Below, one piece after another: positions 26,911-34,244 of a stretch of 64,000 bases of DNA. Each line of letters starts with the position of its first letter. The stretch's first letter is position 1. The notes beneath the pieces were generated by a model. It was not told the origin of the DNA and did not search any database. It worked only from the letters and a program-made list of their open reading frames with translations. Source of the DNA: Natrinema salifodinae (GTDB lineage Archaea > Halobacteriota > Halobacteria > Halobacteriales > Natrialbaceae); contig NZ_FOIS01000001.1 of the NCBI RefSeq assembly GCF_900110455.1, positions 434,001-498,000 of the forward strand, in the 5' to 3' direction. Position numbers and translations under genes: made by a program.

Positions 26911-28422
26911 ATGACTGATGGGCGGGGCGAGACTCCCCGGCGAACAGGAATGACCGAAAAGTGCGGCGTCGTCGGCGTCTCACTGAACGGTCGAGACGCG
27001 GCACGACCGTTGTATTATGCGCTCTACGCACTCCAGCACCGCGGTCAGGAGTCCGCGGGGATCGTCACCCACGACGGCTTCCAGCAGCACAGCCACGTCG
27101 AGATGGGCCTGGTGGGCGACGCCTTCGGTGAGGACGACCTCGACGCGCTCAACGGGGCGGCGGGGATCGGCCACGTCCGGTATCCGACGGCCGGCTCGGT
27201 CGACTCCTCGTGCGCCCAGCCGTTCTCCGTCTCCTTCAAGAGCGGCTCGCTGGGGCTCTCCCACAACGGCAACCTCGTCAACGCCGACGAGATCCGCGAC
27301 GAACTCGCCGCCGCGGGCCACGCCTTCACCAGCGACGGCGACACCGAGGTCATCGCCCACGACCTCGCGCGCAACCTCTTAGAGGAGGACCTGGTGCGGG
27401 CCGTCAAACACACGATGGGGCGGATCCACGGCTCCTACTCGCTGACGATCAGCCACGACGACACCATCCTCGGCGTGCGCGATCCGCAGGGGAACCGCCC
27501 GCTCTGTATCGGGGAGCTCGAGGACGGCTACATACTGGCCTCCGAGTCGGCCGCGATCGACACGTTAGACGGGGACCTCGTCCGCGACGTTCGCCCCGGC
27601 GAGCTGGTCGTCCTGCGAGACGACGGCCAGGGCTTTGACTCCTACCAGCTCGTCGAAAACGAGAACACCGCCCACTGCTTCTTCGAACACGTCTACTTCG
27701 CCCGCCCCGACAGCGTCATCGACGAGACGCTGGTCTACGAGGCCCGGCGGAACCTCGGGCGCAAGCTCTGGGAGGAAAGCGGCGTCGAGACCGACGTCGT
27801 GATGCCGGTACCCGACTCCGGTCGGGCGTTCGCCTCCGGCTACGCGGACGCGGCAAGCGAGACGACCGCCGACGGCGAGCCCCGCGACGCCGACGACGAC
27901 GGCGTCGAGTTCGCCGAGGGGCTGATGAAGAACCGCTACGTCGGCCGGACGTTCATCATGCCGACTCAGGATGAACGCGAGCGCGCGGTGCGGCTGAAGC
28001 TCAACCCGATCAAGTCCACGATCGAGGGCAAGACCGTCACCGTCATCGACGACTCGATCGTCCGCGGGACGACCTCGACCCAGCTCGTCCAGCTGCTGAA
28101 AGACTGCGGGGCCGAGGAAGTCCACGTCCGGATCGGCGCGCCGGCGATCGTCGCCCCCTGTTACATGGGCATCGACATGGCCACCCGCGAGGAACTGATC
28201 GCTTCCGACAAGTCCACCGACGAGATCCGCGACGCGATCAGCGCCGACAGCCTGGCCTACCTCTCGACCGACGCGGTCGCCGAGGTGCTCGACGAGGAGC
28301 GGATCGACCTCTGTCTGGGCTGCGTGACGGGTGAGTACCCCTACGACATCGAGGGCGAGGCGACCGATCGCGACGTGAGCCGACCCGACGTCGGCGACCG
28401 GCAGCTCCCCGCGGACGACTAA
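26911..28422 (+). CDS. purF: Amidophosphoribosyltransferase
   Basis: A 503-residue enzyme that catalyses the first committed step of purine synthesis, PRPP plus glutamine to phosphoribosylamine. The Ntn glutaminase domain starts at Cys in MTEKCGVVGVSL after a short propeptide of about 17 residues. QHRGQESAGI and the LSHNGNLVN motif follow. The phosphoribosyltransferase half has the PRPP-binding loop VIDDSIVRGTTS and VPDSGR. The ATG at 26911 is supported by its TATA box. An unusual acidic insert (DADDDGVEFAEG) precedes MKNRYVGRTF. It is divergent from the MutS-family gene. Confidence 0.96.
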   Translation: MTDGRGETPRRTGMTEKCGVVGVSLNGRDAARPLYYALYALQHRGQESAGIVTHDGFQQHSHVEMGLVGDAFGEDDLDALNGAAGIGHVRYPTAGSVDSSCAQPFSVSFKSGSLGLSHNGNLVNADEIRDELAAAGHAFTSDGDTEVIAHDLARNLLEEDLVRAVKHTMGRIHGSYSLTISHDDTILGVRDPQGNRPLCIGELEDGYILASESAAIDTLDGDLVRDVRPGELVVLRDDGQGFDSYQLVENENTAHCFFEHVYFARPDSVIDETLVYEARRNLGRKLWEESGVETDVVMPVPDSGRAFASGYADAASETTADGEPRDADDDGVEFAEGLMKNRYVGRTFIMPTQDERERAVRLKLNPIKSTIEGKTVTVIDDSIVRGTTSTQLVQLLKDCGAEEVHVRIGAPAIVAPCYMGIDMATREELIASDKSTDEIRDAISADSLAYLSTDAVAEVLDEERIDLCLGCVTGEYPYDIEGEATDRDVSRPDVGDRQLPADD

Positions 28423-28738: not shown

Positions 28739-29704
28739 TCAGCGCGTCGCTTTGTACGCGAGGAAAACCGCCGTGCCGAGCGCCGCGGCGTACCACAGCG
28801 TTCCGACGCGGATGACCATCGTGGCGCCGGCGGCGACGGGTTCGGGATACCCAACCGCGATCAGCGCGCCGACCATCGACGCCTCCGCCGCTGCGATCCC
28901 GCCGGGGAGCATCGACACCGCGCCGATGACCGACCCGAGCCCGAAGACGAACAGGCCGGTCGTGACGTCCGCTTCGACGCCGAACCCGTCGAGTACCACC
29001 CACAGCGCGACCCCCTCCAGCCCCCACGCAGCGAGGCTGAACAGCGTCGAGACGATCAGTGGCCGGACCTGAAACAGTCGATACGCGCTCTCGTAGAACT
29101 GCTCCAGTTCGGTCGCGTAGTCGCCGACGACCGGGACCGCTTCGAGCCGTTCGAGGATCGCCAGGCAGCCCCGTCGCCACTGAAGCAGACCGATCCCGGT
29201 CGCGATGGCGCCGAAAACGACGATGATGGGAAGCGACGAGCGACCGTACCCCAACAGTCCGAGCGCGGCCATCGCGCTCAGCGCGATGAGGTCCGTGATC
29301 CGCTCGGCGCCGACGACGGAGGTGGTCTTGCTCGCGGACACGCCGCGCTGATCGCGGAGAAACCACGCCTTCCAGACCTCCCCGGCCTTGCCCGGCGTGA
29401 CGACCATCATCAGGCCGCTAAAGAAGGTGACGGCGCTCGCATCGAGCGGAACGTCGATGTCGAGACACCGGAGGTAGTAGTGCCACTTGGCGAATCGGAA
29501 CCCGTAGCCGACGGTCGTCAAGCCGACGACGATCGCGAACGTTCGCCAGTTCAGGGCGGCCAGGGCGTTCGTCACGTCGCCGACGTCCGCGTAGACAGCG
29601 AGACCGAGGAAGACGACGACCGAGAGCAGTGCTGTCACCCAGATGCCGTGGTCGCGGACGGCCGCTCGCCCACGATCGACGACGGATTCGCCGTAATTGC
29701 TCAT
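28739..29704 (-). CDS. UPF0104 / LPG synthase-like membrane protein (possible lipid-sugar flippase)
   Basis: A 321-residue protein with about eight membrane helices from the lysylphosphatidylglycerol-synthase transmembrane (UPF0104) family. Typical motifs are VTPGKAGEVWKAWFL near residues 101-116 and SMLPGGIAAAEASMVGAL near 261-280. The catalytic soluble domain of MprF is absent. Haloarchaeal members occur next to glycosylation genes and are candidate flippases or accessory factors. Its ATG overlaps the stop of the PHP gene by 4 nt (ATGA), so the two are translationally coupled. Confidence 0.85.
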   Translation of the reverse strand: MSNYGESVVDRGRAAVRDHGIWVTALLSVVVFLGLAVYADVGDVTNALAALNWRTFAIVVGLTTVGYGFRFAKWHYYLRCLDIDVPLDASAVTFFSGLMMVVTPGKAGEVWKAWFLRDQRGVSASKTTSVVGAERITDLIALSAMAALGLLGYGRSSLPIIVVFGAIATGIGLLQWRRGCLAILERLEAVPVVGDYATELEQFYESAYRLFQVRPLIVSTLFSLAAWGLEGVALWVVLDGFGVEADVTTGLFVFGLGSVIGAVSMLPGGIAAAEASMVGALIAVGYPEPVAAGATMVIRVGTLWYAAALGTAVFLAYKATR

Positions 29705-30387
29705 CGTCGCGGGGATCCCTCCGACCTGAAGGGTTCGACGGCGCGACCGGCGGCGGTGCGGACCTGGTGGAGTTTCGTCGCGACGTGCCCCGAGAGGTAC
29801 CGTCCGCGACCGCCAGGCCGGACGCGGCCGTCGCGCAGGGCGTCCGCGAGCGATCCGTCACCGTCGATACAGGTGTACGCGCGACCGACCTCCATCGGAA
29901 AGTGGGCGTCGCTCCCGCCGGTCGACGGCAGGTCGTGAGCAGCCGCGAACGCCGCCGCGCGCTCGTTGAACCGCCGGCGGACACAGCGGGAGTTCACCGT
30001 TTCGACCCCGTCGACGGCGTCGGCGAGGGCGTCGAGGTCCGTCTCGTAGTACTGTCGTAGCGCGTCGAACGGGTGCGAGAGGACGGCGACGCCGCCCTGG
30101 TCGTGAACGCGGTCGACCGCTGTCAGCGGGTCGGTCTGAGGCGGCGCCTCGGTCACGTCGAGTGCCAGGAGGTGCCCTTCGGTCGTCGTCACCTCGACCC
30201 CGGAGATCACCTCGAGGGCGGCCGGTGCGGCGTCCCGAACGGCGTCGACGTTGGCGAGCGTGTCGTGGTCGGTGATCGCGATGCCGTCGAGTCCGGCGTC
30301 GACCGCCGCTGAGACGACGCGCTCGGGTGGCGTGCTCGAACAGGGCGAGGCGTCCGTGTGTACCTGGAGATCGTATCTGCGTGTCAT
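29701..30387 (-). CDS. PHP-domain phosphoesterase-like protein
   Basis: A 228-residue polymerase-and-histidinol-phosphatase domain protein. The metal-site motifs are DLQVHTDAS at residues 5-13, ITDHDT, a Glu in ISGVEVTT, SHPFDALR and GSDAHFP. The usual first HxH is QxH here, so one metal ligand is absent or replaced. PHP proteins hydrolyse phosphomonoesters or diesters. The gene is 31 nt downstream of a UbiA-type phosphoribosyltransferase homologue, and overlaps the UPF0104 gene. It could remove the 5-phosphate from a lipid-linked phosphoribose; this is an inference. Confidence 0.85.
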   Translation of the reverse strand: MTRRYDLQVHTDASPCSSTPPERVVSAAVDAGLDGIAITDHDTLANVDAVRDAAPAALEVISGVEVTTTEGHLLALDVTEAPPQTDPLTAVDRVHDQGGVAVLSHPFDALRQYYETDLDALADAVDGVETVNSRCVRRRFNERAAAFAAAHDLPSTGGSDAHFPMEVGRAYTCIDGDGSLADALRDGRVRPGGRGRYLSGHVATKLHQVRTAAGRAVEPFRSEGSPRR

Positions 30388-30418
30388 TGTGGGTTCGGCG
30401 CGGCGTAGCGTGCGAGTC

Positions 30419-31333
30419 TCACGTGATCGTTTCGAGAAGTCGGAGCGGCACCTCGTAAAGGACCGCGATGACGACGAAGCCCCAGACGACGAGGTTGACG
30501 AGAAACGGGCGGTCGCCAAAGAGGTACTTCGGGTCGCCGCCCAGGTCTCGCGTGTGGGCGAGGTGGTGATAGCGGAAGGCCGCGAAAAAGGCGAACGGGA
30601 GCGTGACCATCATCCACGGGCCGTCCCCGTAGAACGTGTACAACGAGTAGGAGACGAGCAGCGCCGAGAGGACGGCGACGAGCAACTGGTCGAGCGTCTC
30701 CTCGGTGTACTCGTCGAGGCTGGAGCGCGACGCGGCCGGATCATCGCTGACGATCATCTCGTGGCGGCGTTTGCCGAGCGCGAGCATCAGCGCCGCGAGG
30801 AACGTACAGACGACGAGCCAGGGGCTCAGGGAGACGTCGATGGCGACGACGCCCGCGATAGCCCGCAGGACGAACCCGATGGCGATGACCATCACGTCGA
30901 CGAGGACGACCTCCTTCAAGAACGCGGAGTAGAGCGCGTTCTGTACGATATACGTGCAGACGACGAGGAGGAACAGCGGACCGAGGTACCAGGCGAGGGC
31001 GAGCCCGCCGACGAAGAGCAGGATCGCGAACGCCGCCGCCACGGGGATCGGAACCTGGCCGCTGGCGATGGGTCGGTGTTTCTTCTGCGGATGGTTGCGA
31101 TCCTCCTCGACGTCGAGGATGTCGTTGCCGATGTACGTCGCGCCCGCGATGACGCAGAACGCGACAATCCCGAGGGCGACGCTCGCGACGGCGACCGGAT
31201 CGAGCAGGCTCTTGGAGAAGATTAGCCCCAACAGCAGGATGCTCTGTTTGTACCACTGCCAGGGTCGCAACTCCTTGACCAGGCCGGAGAGGGCACCCGC
31301 GAGCCGGCTCTGGTCGGCATAGGCGCGGGACAT
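30419..31333 (-). CDS. UbiA-family polyprenyl-phosphate phosphoribosyltransferase homologue (DPPR synthase-like)
   Basis: A 304-residue membrane prenyltransferase with about nine helices. The Mg/pyrophosphate motif reads NDILDVEEDRNHPQKKHRPI, close to the NDxxDxxxD region of mycobacterial DPPR synthase (Rv3806c). FVLRAIAGVVAIDVSLSPW, LGKRRHE and SLDEYTEETL also follow that enzyme's pattern in order. It probably joins phosphoribose from PRPP to a dolichyl/polyprenyl phosphate. A T-rich TATA-like element lies ~31 nt before the ATG. It leads an operon with the PHP and UPF0104 genes and is divergent from an SDR gene. Confidence 0.86.
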   Translation of the reverse strand: MSRAYADQSRLAGALSGLVKELRPWQWYKQSILLLGLIFSKSLLDPVAVASVALGIVAFCVIAGATYIGNDILDVEEDRNHPQKKHRPIASGQVPIPVAAAFAILLFVGGLALAWYLGPLFLLVVCTYIVQNALYSAFLKEVVLVDVMVIAIGFVLRAIAGVVAIDVSLSPWLVVCTFLAALMLALGKRRHEMIVSDDPAASRSSLDEYTEETLDQLLVAVLSALLVSYSLYTFYGDGPWMMVTLPFAFFAAFRYHHLAHTRDLGGDPKYLFGDRPFLVNLVVWGFVVIAVLYEVPLRLLETIT

Positions 31334-31714
31334 CTCTGTCTCTCCACCCCTAGGACGGACAAAAAAGGCTCGCGCTCGCTTTCAACCATTTTACGATCGT
31401 TTGGTATCGCGAAACGGCACGAGCCGACGAGCGGCCGCCCGCTTCTCGCCGAAGGGTGCCCGATCCGAGCGAAACCGGGCGGGCAGAAACGCCGGTCGGT
31501 GACCCGCCCGCTACGGCACCGACTAGCACTTCGCCAGTGGGCTCTTTCCCTCGCTCCGCCCGTTCGATGCGGCTCTCGACCCGGATCCGATTTCGAATTC
31601 GGCTCGCCGTAATCACTCCGTTCCGCGTCGGTAGGCCGAACAACCATCCGTTTAGGGCCGGTTAACCGTCGATACACTATTGAAGCGCTGCGTCGACGTT
31701 CGGCTGATATTACG
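31334..31714. promoter_or_regulatory. Divergent promoter spacer, UbiA-type / SDR genes
   Basis: This 381-nt gap separates two outward-transcribed units. The left promoter has the minus-strand T-run CCTTTTTTG near 31360-31368. On the right, ATACACTAT at about 31672-31680 is a weak TATA candidate 35-43 nt before the SDR ATG. The middle ~250 nt is non-coding by eye and long enough for a shared regulatory site, though no clear repeat is seen. Confidence 0.45.
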
Positions 31715-32806
31715 ATGAGCGATAGCGAGCGCACGAGCGACGACTCGACCGGTGCCGTTCTCGTTACGGGGGGGACCGGATTCCTCGGCCTCCACGCGTG
31801 CCAGCACTTCCGCGATCGGGGCTGGGACGTCACCGCGTTCGACCGCAAGCCCTTCGAGGAGTCGGACGACACGGACGGAATCGACTTCGTCCGGGGAGAC
31901 GTCCGGAGCGAGGAGTCCGTGGCCGACGCGCTCGAGGAGAGCGGCGCCACCGCCGTCGTGCACGCGGCGGCCGCGCTCCCGCTGTGGGACGACGACCGCA
32001 TCCGCGAGACGACGATCGACGGAACGCGCAACGTGCTCTGGGCGGCCAAAGACGGCGGCGTCGAGCGCGTCTGTTACATCTCCTCGACCGCGGTTTACGG
32101 GACCCACGATACGCATCCTATCACCGAGGAGTCGCCTCTAGAGGGCGTCGGACCCTACGGCGAGGCCAAGATCCAGGCCGAGAAGGTCTGCGAGGACTTC
32201 CGTCGCATGGGGATGTGCGTTCCCGTCCTCCGCCCGAAGACGTTCATCGGCCCGCAGCGGCTCGGCGTGTTTCAGGTGTTGTTCGACTGGATCGAAGACG
32301 GCGCGAACGTCCCGCTCGTCGGCTGGGGAGACAACCGCTACCAGCTACTGCACGTCCACGACCTCGTCACCGCCATCGAACTGATGCTCACCGAGGACGA
32401 GGAGGCGGTAAACGAGACGTTCAACGTCGGCACCGACGAGTTCGGCACCATGAAGGAGGACTTCCAGGCCCCGATCGACTACGCGGGGACGGGCAAGCGC
32501 ACCATCGGAACGCCCGCCGTCCTCACGGTCACGGTTCTCCGCGCGCTCGAGAAGCTGAACCTCTCCCCGCTGTACCCGTGGGTCTACGAGACGGCCCACG
32601 AGGACTCGTACGTCTCCGTCGAGAAACTGAAGGGCCTCGGCTGGGAGCCCGAGTACTCCAACGAAGAAGCGCTCGTAGAGACGTACAAGTGGTATCTAGA
32701 GAACTACGAGTCCGACCAGGCGGCCGACGAGACTGGCCTCGATCACCGCGTCGCGTGGGATCAAGGTGCCCTCGTCGCCGCGAAGAAAGTCTCACAGCGG
32801 ATCTGA
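31715..32806 (+). CDS. Extended SDR NAD-dependent epimerase/dehydratase
   Basis: A 363-residue nucleotide- or lipid-sugar-modifying enzyme. The cofactor loop VTGGTGFLG is at about 17-25, the catalytic Ser lies in ISSTAVYG and the catalytic Tyr/Lys pair in YGEAKIQAEK. The C-terminal domain contains LLHVHDLVTAIELML. This resembles UDP-sugar 4-epimerases and also 3-beta-HSD-like enzymes. The substrate is unknown. It is the first gene of a unit with the GT-C-like protein and is divergent from the UbiA homologue, consistent with acting on the same sugar intermediate. Confidence 0.88.
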   Translation: MSDSERTSDDSTGAVLVTGGTGFLGLHACQHFRDRGWDVTAFDRKPFEESDDTDGIDFVRGDVRSEESVADALEESGATAVVHAAAALPLWDDDRIRETTIDGTRNVLWAAKDGGVERVCYISSTAVYGTHDTHPITEESPLEGVGPYGEAKIQAEKVCEDFRRMGMCVPVLRPKTFIGPQRLGVFQVLFDWIEDGANVPLVGWGDNRYQLLHVHDLVTAIELMLTEDEEAVNETFNVGTDEFGTMKEDFQAPIDYAGTGKRTIGTPAVLTVTVLRALEKLNLSPLYPWVYETAHEDSYVSVEKLKGLGWEPEYSNEEALVETYKWYLENYESDQAADETGLDHRVAWDQGALVAAKKVSQRI

Positions 32807-32894
32807 CCGGTGCCGACGGCGGTCGCGCGCTGACCCGCGCGATGGCAGCAGACGAGCCCGCAGCGTCCGTACCCGACCGTCACGATACCCCCCC

Positions 32895-34244
32895 ATGCCG
32901 ATACGTATCCCCCTCCGCGCTCGCTCCGACTGGATCGTCGTTCTCGGTCCGATCGTCGCCGTTCTGTTCGCCGCCGGACTCGCGACGTATCTCGTAACCG
33001 AGTGGCCGGCGATCGCGACCGATCCGGCGTTCTTCCAGCACACCGGTTGGTACGTCCTCAACGGCGGCGTTCCATACGTCGACGTCTGGGACGTGAACCC
33101 GCCCGTCCCGTTCGGCATCTCGGCCGTGCTCGCCGTCCTTTCCGGCGGCGACATGCTCGTTTTGCACGGGCTCGGCGTGACGCTCACGGCGGTCGTCGCG
33201 GCCGCGAGCGTCCTGCTCGTCGGGCAGGTGGCTCACCTCGCGACCGGGAACGACGCGGCGGCGGTCGCCGCCGGCCTCGCGATGCTGGTCGTCCCGGAAC
33301 TCTTCCTCCTCTCCCCGGAAGGGGTGCGGGCGCAGTTCTACGCGCTGTTTTTCGGCGTCCTCGCGCTCGCTCTGGTCCTCCGCGACCGTCCGTTCCTCGC
33401 GGGAGCCGCCGCGGCGCTGAGCGCCGGCTCGTGGCAGTCGGGGGCCGCGTTCGCACTGTTGGTCGTCGGGATGGCGTACCAGCGAACTGACCGGCGGGGC
33501 GCGCTCGCGGCGATCGCGGGCGGCAGCGTCGTGACCGGTGCCGTCCTCGTCGCGTTCGCGGCCGCGGGCGCGCTCGTTCCAATGGTCGTCCAGACCGTGC
33601 TCGCACCGCTGCTCGCCGGCTCGTCGTACACCCTGGCCGAACGCGTCTACTCGATCCTGCTGGTGTTCGGCTACGGGTCAATGCTCCTTCCGGTGGCGTT
33701 CTACGGCTGGGCGCGCGCCGTCGCCGTCGTCGACCGCCGAGAGCTGTGGTGGGTGCCCGCAGGCGGCCTGATATTCGGCTTTCAGGTGCTGTTCGTCGAC
33801 ATGGACGGCTCGACCGACGCGCTCCTGTGGCTCGCCTTCGTCGCGCTCGGCGTGGGCGTCGCCGCCGAACGCGTGACCGCGCGGCGATCGTCGGTGACGG
33901 ACCCCGGGGACGACGCGGCCCCGACGATCCGCCGCCAGTGGGCCGTCGTGGCCGTCGTTGGACTGCTCGTCCTCGCGGGACTGGGCTGGCACTACGGCTC
34001 TCCGCAGCCCCAGGAGCGACTCCGGACGATGGAGGAAGCGGCCGAACCCGACGGGGACCCGCTTCCGATACGGCCAGGCGACGCGGACGTCCCGTCGATG
34101 CAGACCATCTACTGGGAACGGATGGAGCCCGAGACATGCCACTACCGGTTGAGTTGGAACGAGATGCGGTGGATCGCGATGACGGACGGGCAACTAGACG
34201 CGCATGATTGCGACGGGTGGCCGAGTCGCACCGATCGCGGCTGA
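32895..34244 (+). CDS. GT-C-like (ArnT/PMT-type) membrane glycosyltransferase candidate
   Basis: A 449-residue protein with about ten helices. The first extracytoplasmic loop after helix 1 reads FFQHTGWYVLNGGVPYVDVWD, with the acidic VDVWD and following NPPVPF typical of GT-C enzymes such as ArnT and dolichyl-P-mannose transferases. Such enzymes use a lipid-phosphate sugar on the outer face. A C-terminal outside domain of ~90 residues contains the cysteines in METCHYRL and HDCDG. ATG 32895 is chosen over an upstream start in low-quality Arg/Ser sequence. It follows the SDR gene by 88 nt. Confidence 0.75.
   Translation: MPIRIPLRARSDWIVVLGPIVAVLFAAGLATYLVTEWPAIATDPAFFQHTGWYVLNGGVPYVDVWDVNPPVPFGISAVLAVLSGGDMLVLHGLGVTLTAVVAAASVLLVGQVAHLATGNDAAAVAAGLAMLVVPELFLLSPEGVRAQFYALFFGVLALALVLRDRPFLAGAAAALSAGSWQSGAAFALLVVGMAYQRTDRRGALAAIAGGSVVTGAVLVAFAAAGALVPMVVQTVLAPLLAGSSYTLAERVYSILLVFGYGSMLLPVAFYGWARAVAVVDRRELWWVPAGGLIFGFQVLFVDMDGSTDALLWLAFVALGVGVAAERVTARRSSVTDPGDDAAPTIRRQWAVVAVVGLLVLAGLGWHYGSPQPQERLRTMEEAAEPDGDPLPIRPGDADVPSMQTIYWERMEPETCHYRLSWNEMRWIAMTDGQLDAHDCDGWPSRTDRG

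Follow-up and report, generated by a model that had tools for sequence, protein, structure and literature searches.

A conserved haloarchaeal gene module with a predicted role in polyprenyl-phosphate-linked pentofuranose synthesis

Do archaea decorate their surfaces with pentofuranoses derived from phosphoribosyl pyrophosphate (PRPP)? Such decoration has been described in mycobacteria and, since 2024, in a range of other bacteria (PMC11127046); an archaeal case was not found in the literature we searched. The question is raised by five neighboring genes in a 64,000-nucleotide stretch of the Natrinema salifodinae genome (contig NZ_FOIS01000001.1, positions 434,001 to 498,000), hereafter called the window. 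An initial annotation had proposed there a polyprenyl-phosphate-pentose pathway for surface glycans, and re-reading the gene coordinates placed all five genes where it had sited them. On the minus strand, the genes for a UbiA-family protein (P0003), a PHP-domain protein, and a UPF0104 membrane protein form one transcription unit, with the described 31-nt gap between the first two and the ATGA overlap between the last two. The plus strand carries an extended short-chain dehydrogenase/reductase (SDR), followed by a membrane protein resembling C-type glycosyltransferases (GT-C; P0005). In our estimate, an archaeal polyprenyl-phosphate-pentofuranose pathway is encoded here with a probability of roughly 0.8.

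The UbiA protein had been annotated as resembling decaprenylphosphoryl-5-phosphoribose (DPPR) synthase. Hidden Markov models, active-site residues, and phylogeny bear this out and speak against an enzyme of ether-lipid or quinone synthesis. The protein exceeds the NCBI equivalog model for decaprenyl-phosphate phosphoribosyltransferase, NF008977, with 251.4 bits against a cut-off of 234, and stays below the cut-offs of the sister models NF008978 (191 vs. 207) and NF008976 (150 vs. 474). The models NF009521/NF009522 for digeranylgeranylglyceryl phosphate (DGGGP) synthase yield 36–39 bits with cut-offs of 296–353, and the NCBIfam models for haem O, menaquinone, chlorophyll, and 4-hydroxybenzoate enzymes likewise score far under their cut-offs. 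The top match in the PDB is Rv3806c from Mycobacterium tuberculosis (8j8j; 6.7e-37, 34.7% identity), whose structure defined the PRPP-contacting residues (PMC10994848). The 18 haloarchaeal orthologues described below all keep R22, K28, Y70, N73, D77, K87, R90, Y138, and K143 of Rv3806c, including the Mg-PRPP ligands of the Asp-rich loop (N73 and D77) and the phosphate ligands R22, K28, Y70, K87, R90, and K143. Y157 is replaced by Phe, as in some mycobacteria. We calculated the tree from a reduced set, as the version with all paralogues from the same genome had over-long branches. The haloarchaeal proteins form a single clade (100/100) amid bacterial phosphoribosyltransferases and Rv3806c-like sequences, and the DGGGP synthase and its counterpart from the same genome group apart on a long branch. 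We strongly infer that the enzyme is a polyprenyl-phosphate phosphoribosyltransferase (PPPRS), converting PRPP and dolichyl phosphate into dolichyl-P-ribose-5-phosphate.

We sampled 146 haloarchaeal genomes evenly, and 18 of them contain an orthologue of this UbiA protein. The PHP protein (at least 60% identical) occurs in the same 18 genomes, with remoter PHP paralogues found everywhere. The UPF0104 protein is present in 17 genomes and the window-type SDR in 16, all bearing the UbiA gene; no UPF0104 homologue was found outside these genomes at E<=1e-30. Hypergeometric probabilities for the co-occurrence with UbiA are 3e-21 for UPF0104 and 2e-19 for the SDR, with relatedness not yet allowed for. 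The UbiA and PHP genes are adjacent in 18/18 genomes, joined by UPF0104 in 17/18, and the SDR gene adjoins UbiA divergently in 13/18; it is present and unlinked in three genomes (G099, G111, and G121). The carriers include Natrinema zhouii, N. gelatinilyticum, Natrialba asiatica, Natronorubrum thiooxidans, Natronococcus jeotgali, Haloarcula amylolytica, Halococcus morrhuae, H. thailandensis, Halalkalicoccus paucihalophilus, and Halocatena, and the module is absent from the five other Natrinema species of the 146-genome sample. The linkage is thus genuine, as it recurs in other haloarchaea, and the trait is patchily distributed. Neither of the two findings that by the initial annotation would have refuted its proposal, a UbiA protein grouping with ether-lipid or quinone enzymes and genes unlinked in other haloarchaea, was made, and its five-gene neighborhood holds for four genes, the SDR being divergent from UbiA-PHP-UPF0104; the adjacent GT-C gene is lineage-specific. 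A search of viral contigs found no relative.

Which pentose might be made? In Citrobacter youngae, the choice between ribofuranose and xylofuranose rests with the SDR ORF13, which turns the former into the latter, whereas arabinofuranose clusters employ homologues of DprE1/DprE2 (PMC11127046). The window SDR carries the TGxxGxxG motif and a YGEAK motif of the YxxxK type. A search with the UbiA alignment returned two Citrobacter genomes with the same gene order, namely a HAD-domain phosphoribosyltransferase followed by a 124-residue membrane protein. Citrobacter sp. Cu233 has an SDR in the ORF13 position. In C. youngae CCUG 30791, this slot is instead occupied by a transposase-like open reading frame (L105:11882-12433), which agrees with the published finding that serotype O1 has lost orf13. 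When the Cu233 SDR was searched against the N. salifodinae genome, the window SDR was the best match (7e-37) and a second SDR followed at 6e-19. In a tree that took in 12 other SDRs of the same genome among further sequences, the haloarchaeal SDRs, the Citrobacter SDR, and SDRs encoded next to phosphoribosyltransferase genes or in their vicinity in Oscillatoria, Ensifer, and a Granulosicoccaceae metagenome-assembled genome fall into one clade (100/98). Of the 393 sampled genomes from the phylum, six contain the window-type SDR, and all six bear this UbiA. As the initial annotation had noted, a DprE1-type FAD oxidase is missing: the ALO domain (PF04030) was found nowhere in the genome, and the control search was positive in C. 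glutamicum. Because this domain is missing genome-wide, xylofuranose is likelier than arabinose, and because the SDR is of the ORF13 kind, the end product is presumably not ribose; the suggestion that the chemistry could stop at ribose is probably wrong. Judging from these comparisons, the product is probably dolichyl-P-xylofuranose.

Two variants of the same pathway differ in this step only. The pentose might be arabinofuranose, the C2 epimer, if the SDR alone, or together with another oxidase, did the job of DprE1/DprE2. A lone SDR could both oxidize and reduce at C2, and the PPPRS loci of Oscillatoria and Ensifer (L072:5751-8294; L121:10958-15651) carry, besides the ORF13-type SDR, a GMC oxidoreductase and another SDR that differs from it, possibly forming a further two-enzyme epimerase system unrelated to DprE1. 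The missing ALO-domain oxidase and the xylofuranose specificity of the characterized ORF13 type make arabinofuranose unlikely. For the exopolysaccharide of a Natrialba strain, gas chromatography-mass spectrometry has given hints of ribonic lactone and arabinopyranose (PMC12457646); the study concerns another strain and is too weak to be counted as support. Alternatively, the donor could remain ribofuranose, with the SDR making an unrelated nucleotide sugar. This would account for UbiA-PHP pairs accompanied by no window-type SDR in two haloarchaeal genomes (G124 and G133) and for 7 of the 12 loci from other archaea discussed below, which hold UbiA, PHP, and UPF0104 with no such SDR nearby. The confinement of the SDR to UbiA-bearing genomes, even where it is unlinked, and its clustering in a single clade with bacterial SDRs that are linked to PPPRS make ribofuranose just as improbable as arabinofuranose, and we continue with xylofuranose.

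The functions of the PHP and UPF0104 proteins are illuminated by archaea outside the haloarchaea. We identified their UbiA proteins as NF008977 matches of more than 150 bits, found in a minority of the genomes of the phylum, probably belonging to methanogen lineages, and read 12 neighborhoods. PHP is linked in 9/12 and UPF0104 in 8/12. The PHP protein of the window retains the likely metal-site motifs QVH, DHD, GVE, SHP, and GGSDxH, and the module PHPs of haloarchaea and other archaea are split from the generic haloarchaeal PHPs by a 100/99.8 branch. In one genome (G327, L182), the order is UbiA, a HAD-GtrA fusion, an SDR 52–53% identical to that of the window, and a PMT_2 GT-C; the HAD domain replaces PHP and the GtrA domain replaces UPF0104. 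Two others (G417 and G458; L181 and L184) retain PHP and carry an EamA/SMR-like protein of 120–126 residues in the UPF0104 slot. Rv3789, which has been proposed as a flippase in mycobacteria, belongs to the GtrA family (PMC7389260). In Citrobacter, the HAD domain fused to UbiA represents the phosphatase class, and the flippase role is proposed for the adjacent 124-residue protein in the ORF14 position. These exchanges point to PHP as the 5′-phosphatase, presumably acting on polyprenyl-P-ribose-5-P, and to UPF0104 as the putative flippase of the lipid-linked pentose. We regard the loci with gene exchanges as the strongest functional evidence for the predicted pathway.

PHP and UPF0104 could instead be operon passengers, with the phosphatase or flippase encoded elsewhere. 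PHP proteins have many roles, including those of nucleases and histidinol phosphatase, the flippase activity of UPF0104 is itself a prediction, and a HAD gene follows the SDR gene at two loci (L032 and L033). However, the module-specific PHP clade spans two archaeal groups, UPF0104 co-occurs exclusively with UbiA, and HAD, GtrA, and EamA/SMR-like proteins stand in for the two, which leaves the passenger explanation with a small share of the probability. We also observed a DUF362 protein of about 355–375 residues, with a start like MSxVSVLKTSPETVLEDY, in or beside UbiA-PHP-UPF0104 in seven of the 12 loci (L175, L177, L178, L180, L183, L185, and L186; e.g., L178:10308-11372). None of these seven has an ORF13-type SDR nearby, and the DUF362 protein may be an alternative modifying enzyme.

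The GT-C component is more variable. P0005 has about 10 transmembrane segments, with VDVWDVNPP after the first. Its orthologues adjoin the SDR gene in Natrialbaceae only, in 7/8 of the Natrialbaceae modules seen. We rejected a P0005-type GT-C as an obligate part of the module, since only 4 of the 16 genomes with relatives bear UbiA (hypergeometric 0.11). In Halalkalicoccus, a PMT_2 protein fills the slot after the SDR. In Halococcus, a 477-residue protein with 12 helices (L055:13111-14544; AlphaFold predicted local distance difference test (pLDDT) 46.4) is convergent with UPF0104; it matches PMT_2 below threshold and may represent an undescribed GT-C family. Differing GT-C genes between lineages would be expected if the acceptor glycan varies by lineage; the folds of these proteins are unconfirmed. 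In G124, the UbiA-PHP pair (L044) lies within a polysaccharide cluster with genes for Wzx-like, Wzy_C-like, and GT1 proteins, a UDP-sugar dehydrogenase, an epimerase, a methyltransferase, and a nucleotidyltransferase. Because of this cluster and the GT-C neighbors, the pentose would be destined for a surface glycan. N. salifodinae also holds a second GT-C, 73% identical to P0005 (L155:9252-10610; G000:C2:439454-440809), close to genes for GT2-like, Wzx-like 14-helix, and phosphodiesterase-like proteins.

From linkage, homology, and gene exchange, we infer a pathway of five chemical steps. In the cytoplasm, UbiA would take phosphoribose from PRPP and attach it to dolichyl phosphate, the step for which the inference is strong, and the PHP protein would remove the 5′-phosphate. 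The NAD-dependent, ORF13-type SDR would then invert one ring hydroxyl, most likely at C3, turning dolichyl-P-ribofuranose into dolichyl-P-xylofuranose. UPF0104 would flip the lipid-linked sugar across the membrane, where a GT-C, of PF15971 here and among unrelated GT-C-like proteins in other lineages, could pass the pentose on to a glycan or glycoprotein at the surface. For the fuller proposal, that this is an archaeal pathway of its own in which PHP is a new class of lipid-P-ribose 5′-phosphatase, UPF0104 a new class of lipid-P-sugar flippase, and xylofuranose is delivered to surface glycans via exchangeable GT-Cs, the odds appear to us to be about even.

The initial annotation had drawn a parallel with mycobacteria, of which the DPPR-synthase-like start stands; a better model than mycobacterial arabinan alone is the bacterial three-component pentofuranose system (PMC11127046). 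In C. youngae O1/O2, it consists of PPPRS-PRP, the flippase ORF14, the SDR epimerase ORF13, and the GT136 enzyme ORF12 (PMC11127046). The haloarchaeal module shares the UbiA PPPRS as the first enzyme, the putative phosphatase and flippase functions, an SDR of the same clade, a GT-C as the end enzyme, and the grouping of the genes. It differs in being archaeal and presumably dolichyl-linked. The phosphatase here is a stand-alone PHP protein, with P0003 consisting of UbiA only, whereas a HAD-type PRP domain is fused to PPPRS in Citrobacter, a fusion that the mycobacterial and P. aeruginosa enzymes also lack (PMC11127046). UPF0104 takes the place of the small ORF14 protein, and the PF15971 or PMT_2 GT-Cs have no Pfam link to the Citrobacter GT-C, which carries DUF7024; the prototype there is a GT136 enzyme with a carbohydrate-binding module. 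With the mycobacterial decaprenylphosphoryl arabinose pathway (Rv3806c, Rv3807c, DprE1/DprE2, Rv3789, and Emb/Aft), the module has in common a UbiA protein with the PRPP-binding residues of Rv3806c, a predicted lipid-monophosphate pentose, and its presumed use by GT-Cs. Unlike that pathway, it has no DprE1-type oxidase, another kind of SDR, PHP in place of the phosphatase Rv3807c, and UPF0104 in place of the GtrA-family Rv3789 (PMC7389260). Haloarchaeal Agl N-glycosylation with AglS-type DolP-mannose transfer uses a dolichyl-P-linked sugar extracellularly, as predicted for the module, and the window GT-C belongs to PF15971, named for a DolP-mannose mannosyltransferase; the Agl donor comes from a nucleotide sugar via a GT2 enzyme, whereas the donor here would come from PRPP via UbiA. 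In kind, the module is the bacterial pentofuranose system; in its parts, it is an archaeal version whose putative phosphatase and flippase come from families of their own.

Several observations weigh against assigning the locus to such a pathway. In the haloarchaeal UbiA orthologues, Q135 of Rv3806c is Asn and K208 is not conserved. Constraining these proteins with DGGGP synthases is 8.5 log units worse and not rejected at 5% by the approximately unbiased (AU) test (p 0.078), a weak test given the very long branches. In the SDR tree, ORF13 is represented by the SDR at its position in Citrobacter sp. Cu233 and not by the published entry. The conserved core does not include the GT-C gene, and the fold of P0005 is unconfirmed (AlphaFold pLDDT 38.7), the assignment resting on Pfam and topology. 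G124 has neither UPF0104 nor the SDR, and G133 (77% complete) has no SDR; therefore, the carriers need not all make one sugar. In our literature search, neither such a lipid nor a defined glycan with xylofuranose or ribofuranose was found to be reported for these archaea. It is very improbable that we are dealing with an ordinary prenyltransferase (aromatic, quinone, or ether-lipid) and that the gene linkage means something else: the superfamily fold, the 8 further UbiA genes in the genome, and the weak AU test allow for it, but the passed DPPR synthase model, the low scores for the DGGGP, menaquinone, haem O, and chlorophyll models, and the invariant K28, Y70, and K/R cluster of the phosphoribose site speak against it.

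If the pentofuranose pathway exists, archaeal surface biology would gain a second type of dolichyl-phosphate sugar donor, and two families that are poorly defined, the UPF0104 membrane proteins and one PHP subfamily, would acquire a function that can be tested. The pathway would also forecast which haloarchaea bear surface pentofuranoses. The patchy spread (18/146) would fit a variable surface trait of the kind affecting virus recognition and mating.

Table 1. Positions in the window of the five module genes and of the region between the two transcription units.
Feature	Position	Strand	Basis
UPF0104/LPG_synthase_TM membrane protein	28739-29704	-	PF03706 140.6 bits; TIGR00374 flippase-like
PHP-domain phosphoesterase	29701-30387	-	PF02811 plus PHP_C (PF13263)
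UbiA-family polyprenyl-phosphate phosphoribosyltransferase (PPPRS/DPPR-synthase-like; P0003)	30419-31333	-	UbiA PF01040 103.4 bits
Divergent intergenic region separating two transcription units	31334-31714	no strand	sequence
Extended SDR, ORF13-type	31715-32806	+	Epimerase PF01370 152.3 bits
GT-C-like membrane glycosyltransferase (P0005)	32895-34244	+	Mannosyl_trans4 PF15971 112.1 bits vs. cut-off 33

The gene call for P0005 starts at ATG, and an upstream GTG start is possible. Next past UPF0104 and convergent with the module lies a purF-like amidophosphoribosyltransferase gene (window 26911-28422), encoding another user of PRPP; its position beside a pentose module is probably due to chance. 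Membrane-anchored proteins similar to arylsulfotransferases flank the module in several lineages (L039:12183-13676, L045:12689-13993, and L048:5382-6827). We dropped them as module partners, as the family occurs in 74/146 genomes with many paralogues, and they are probably not module-specific.

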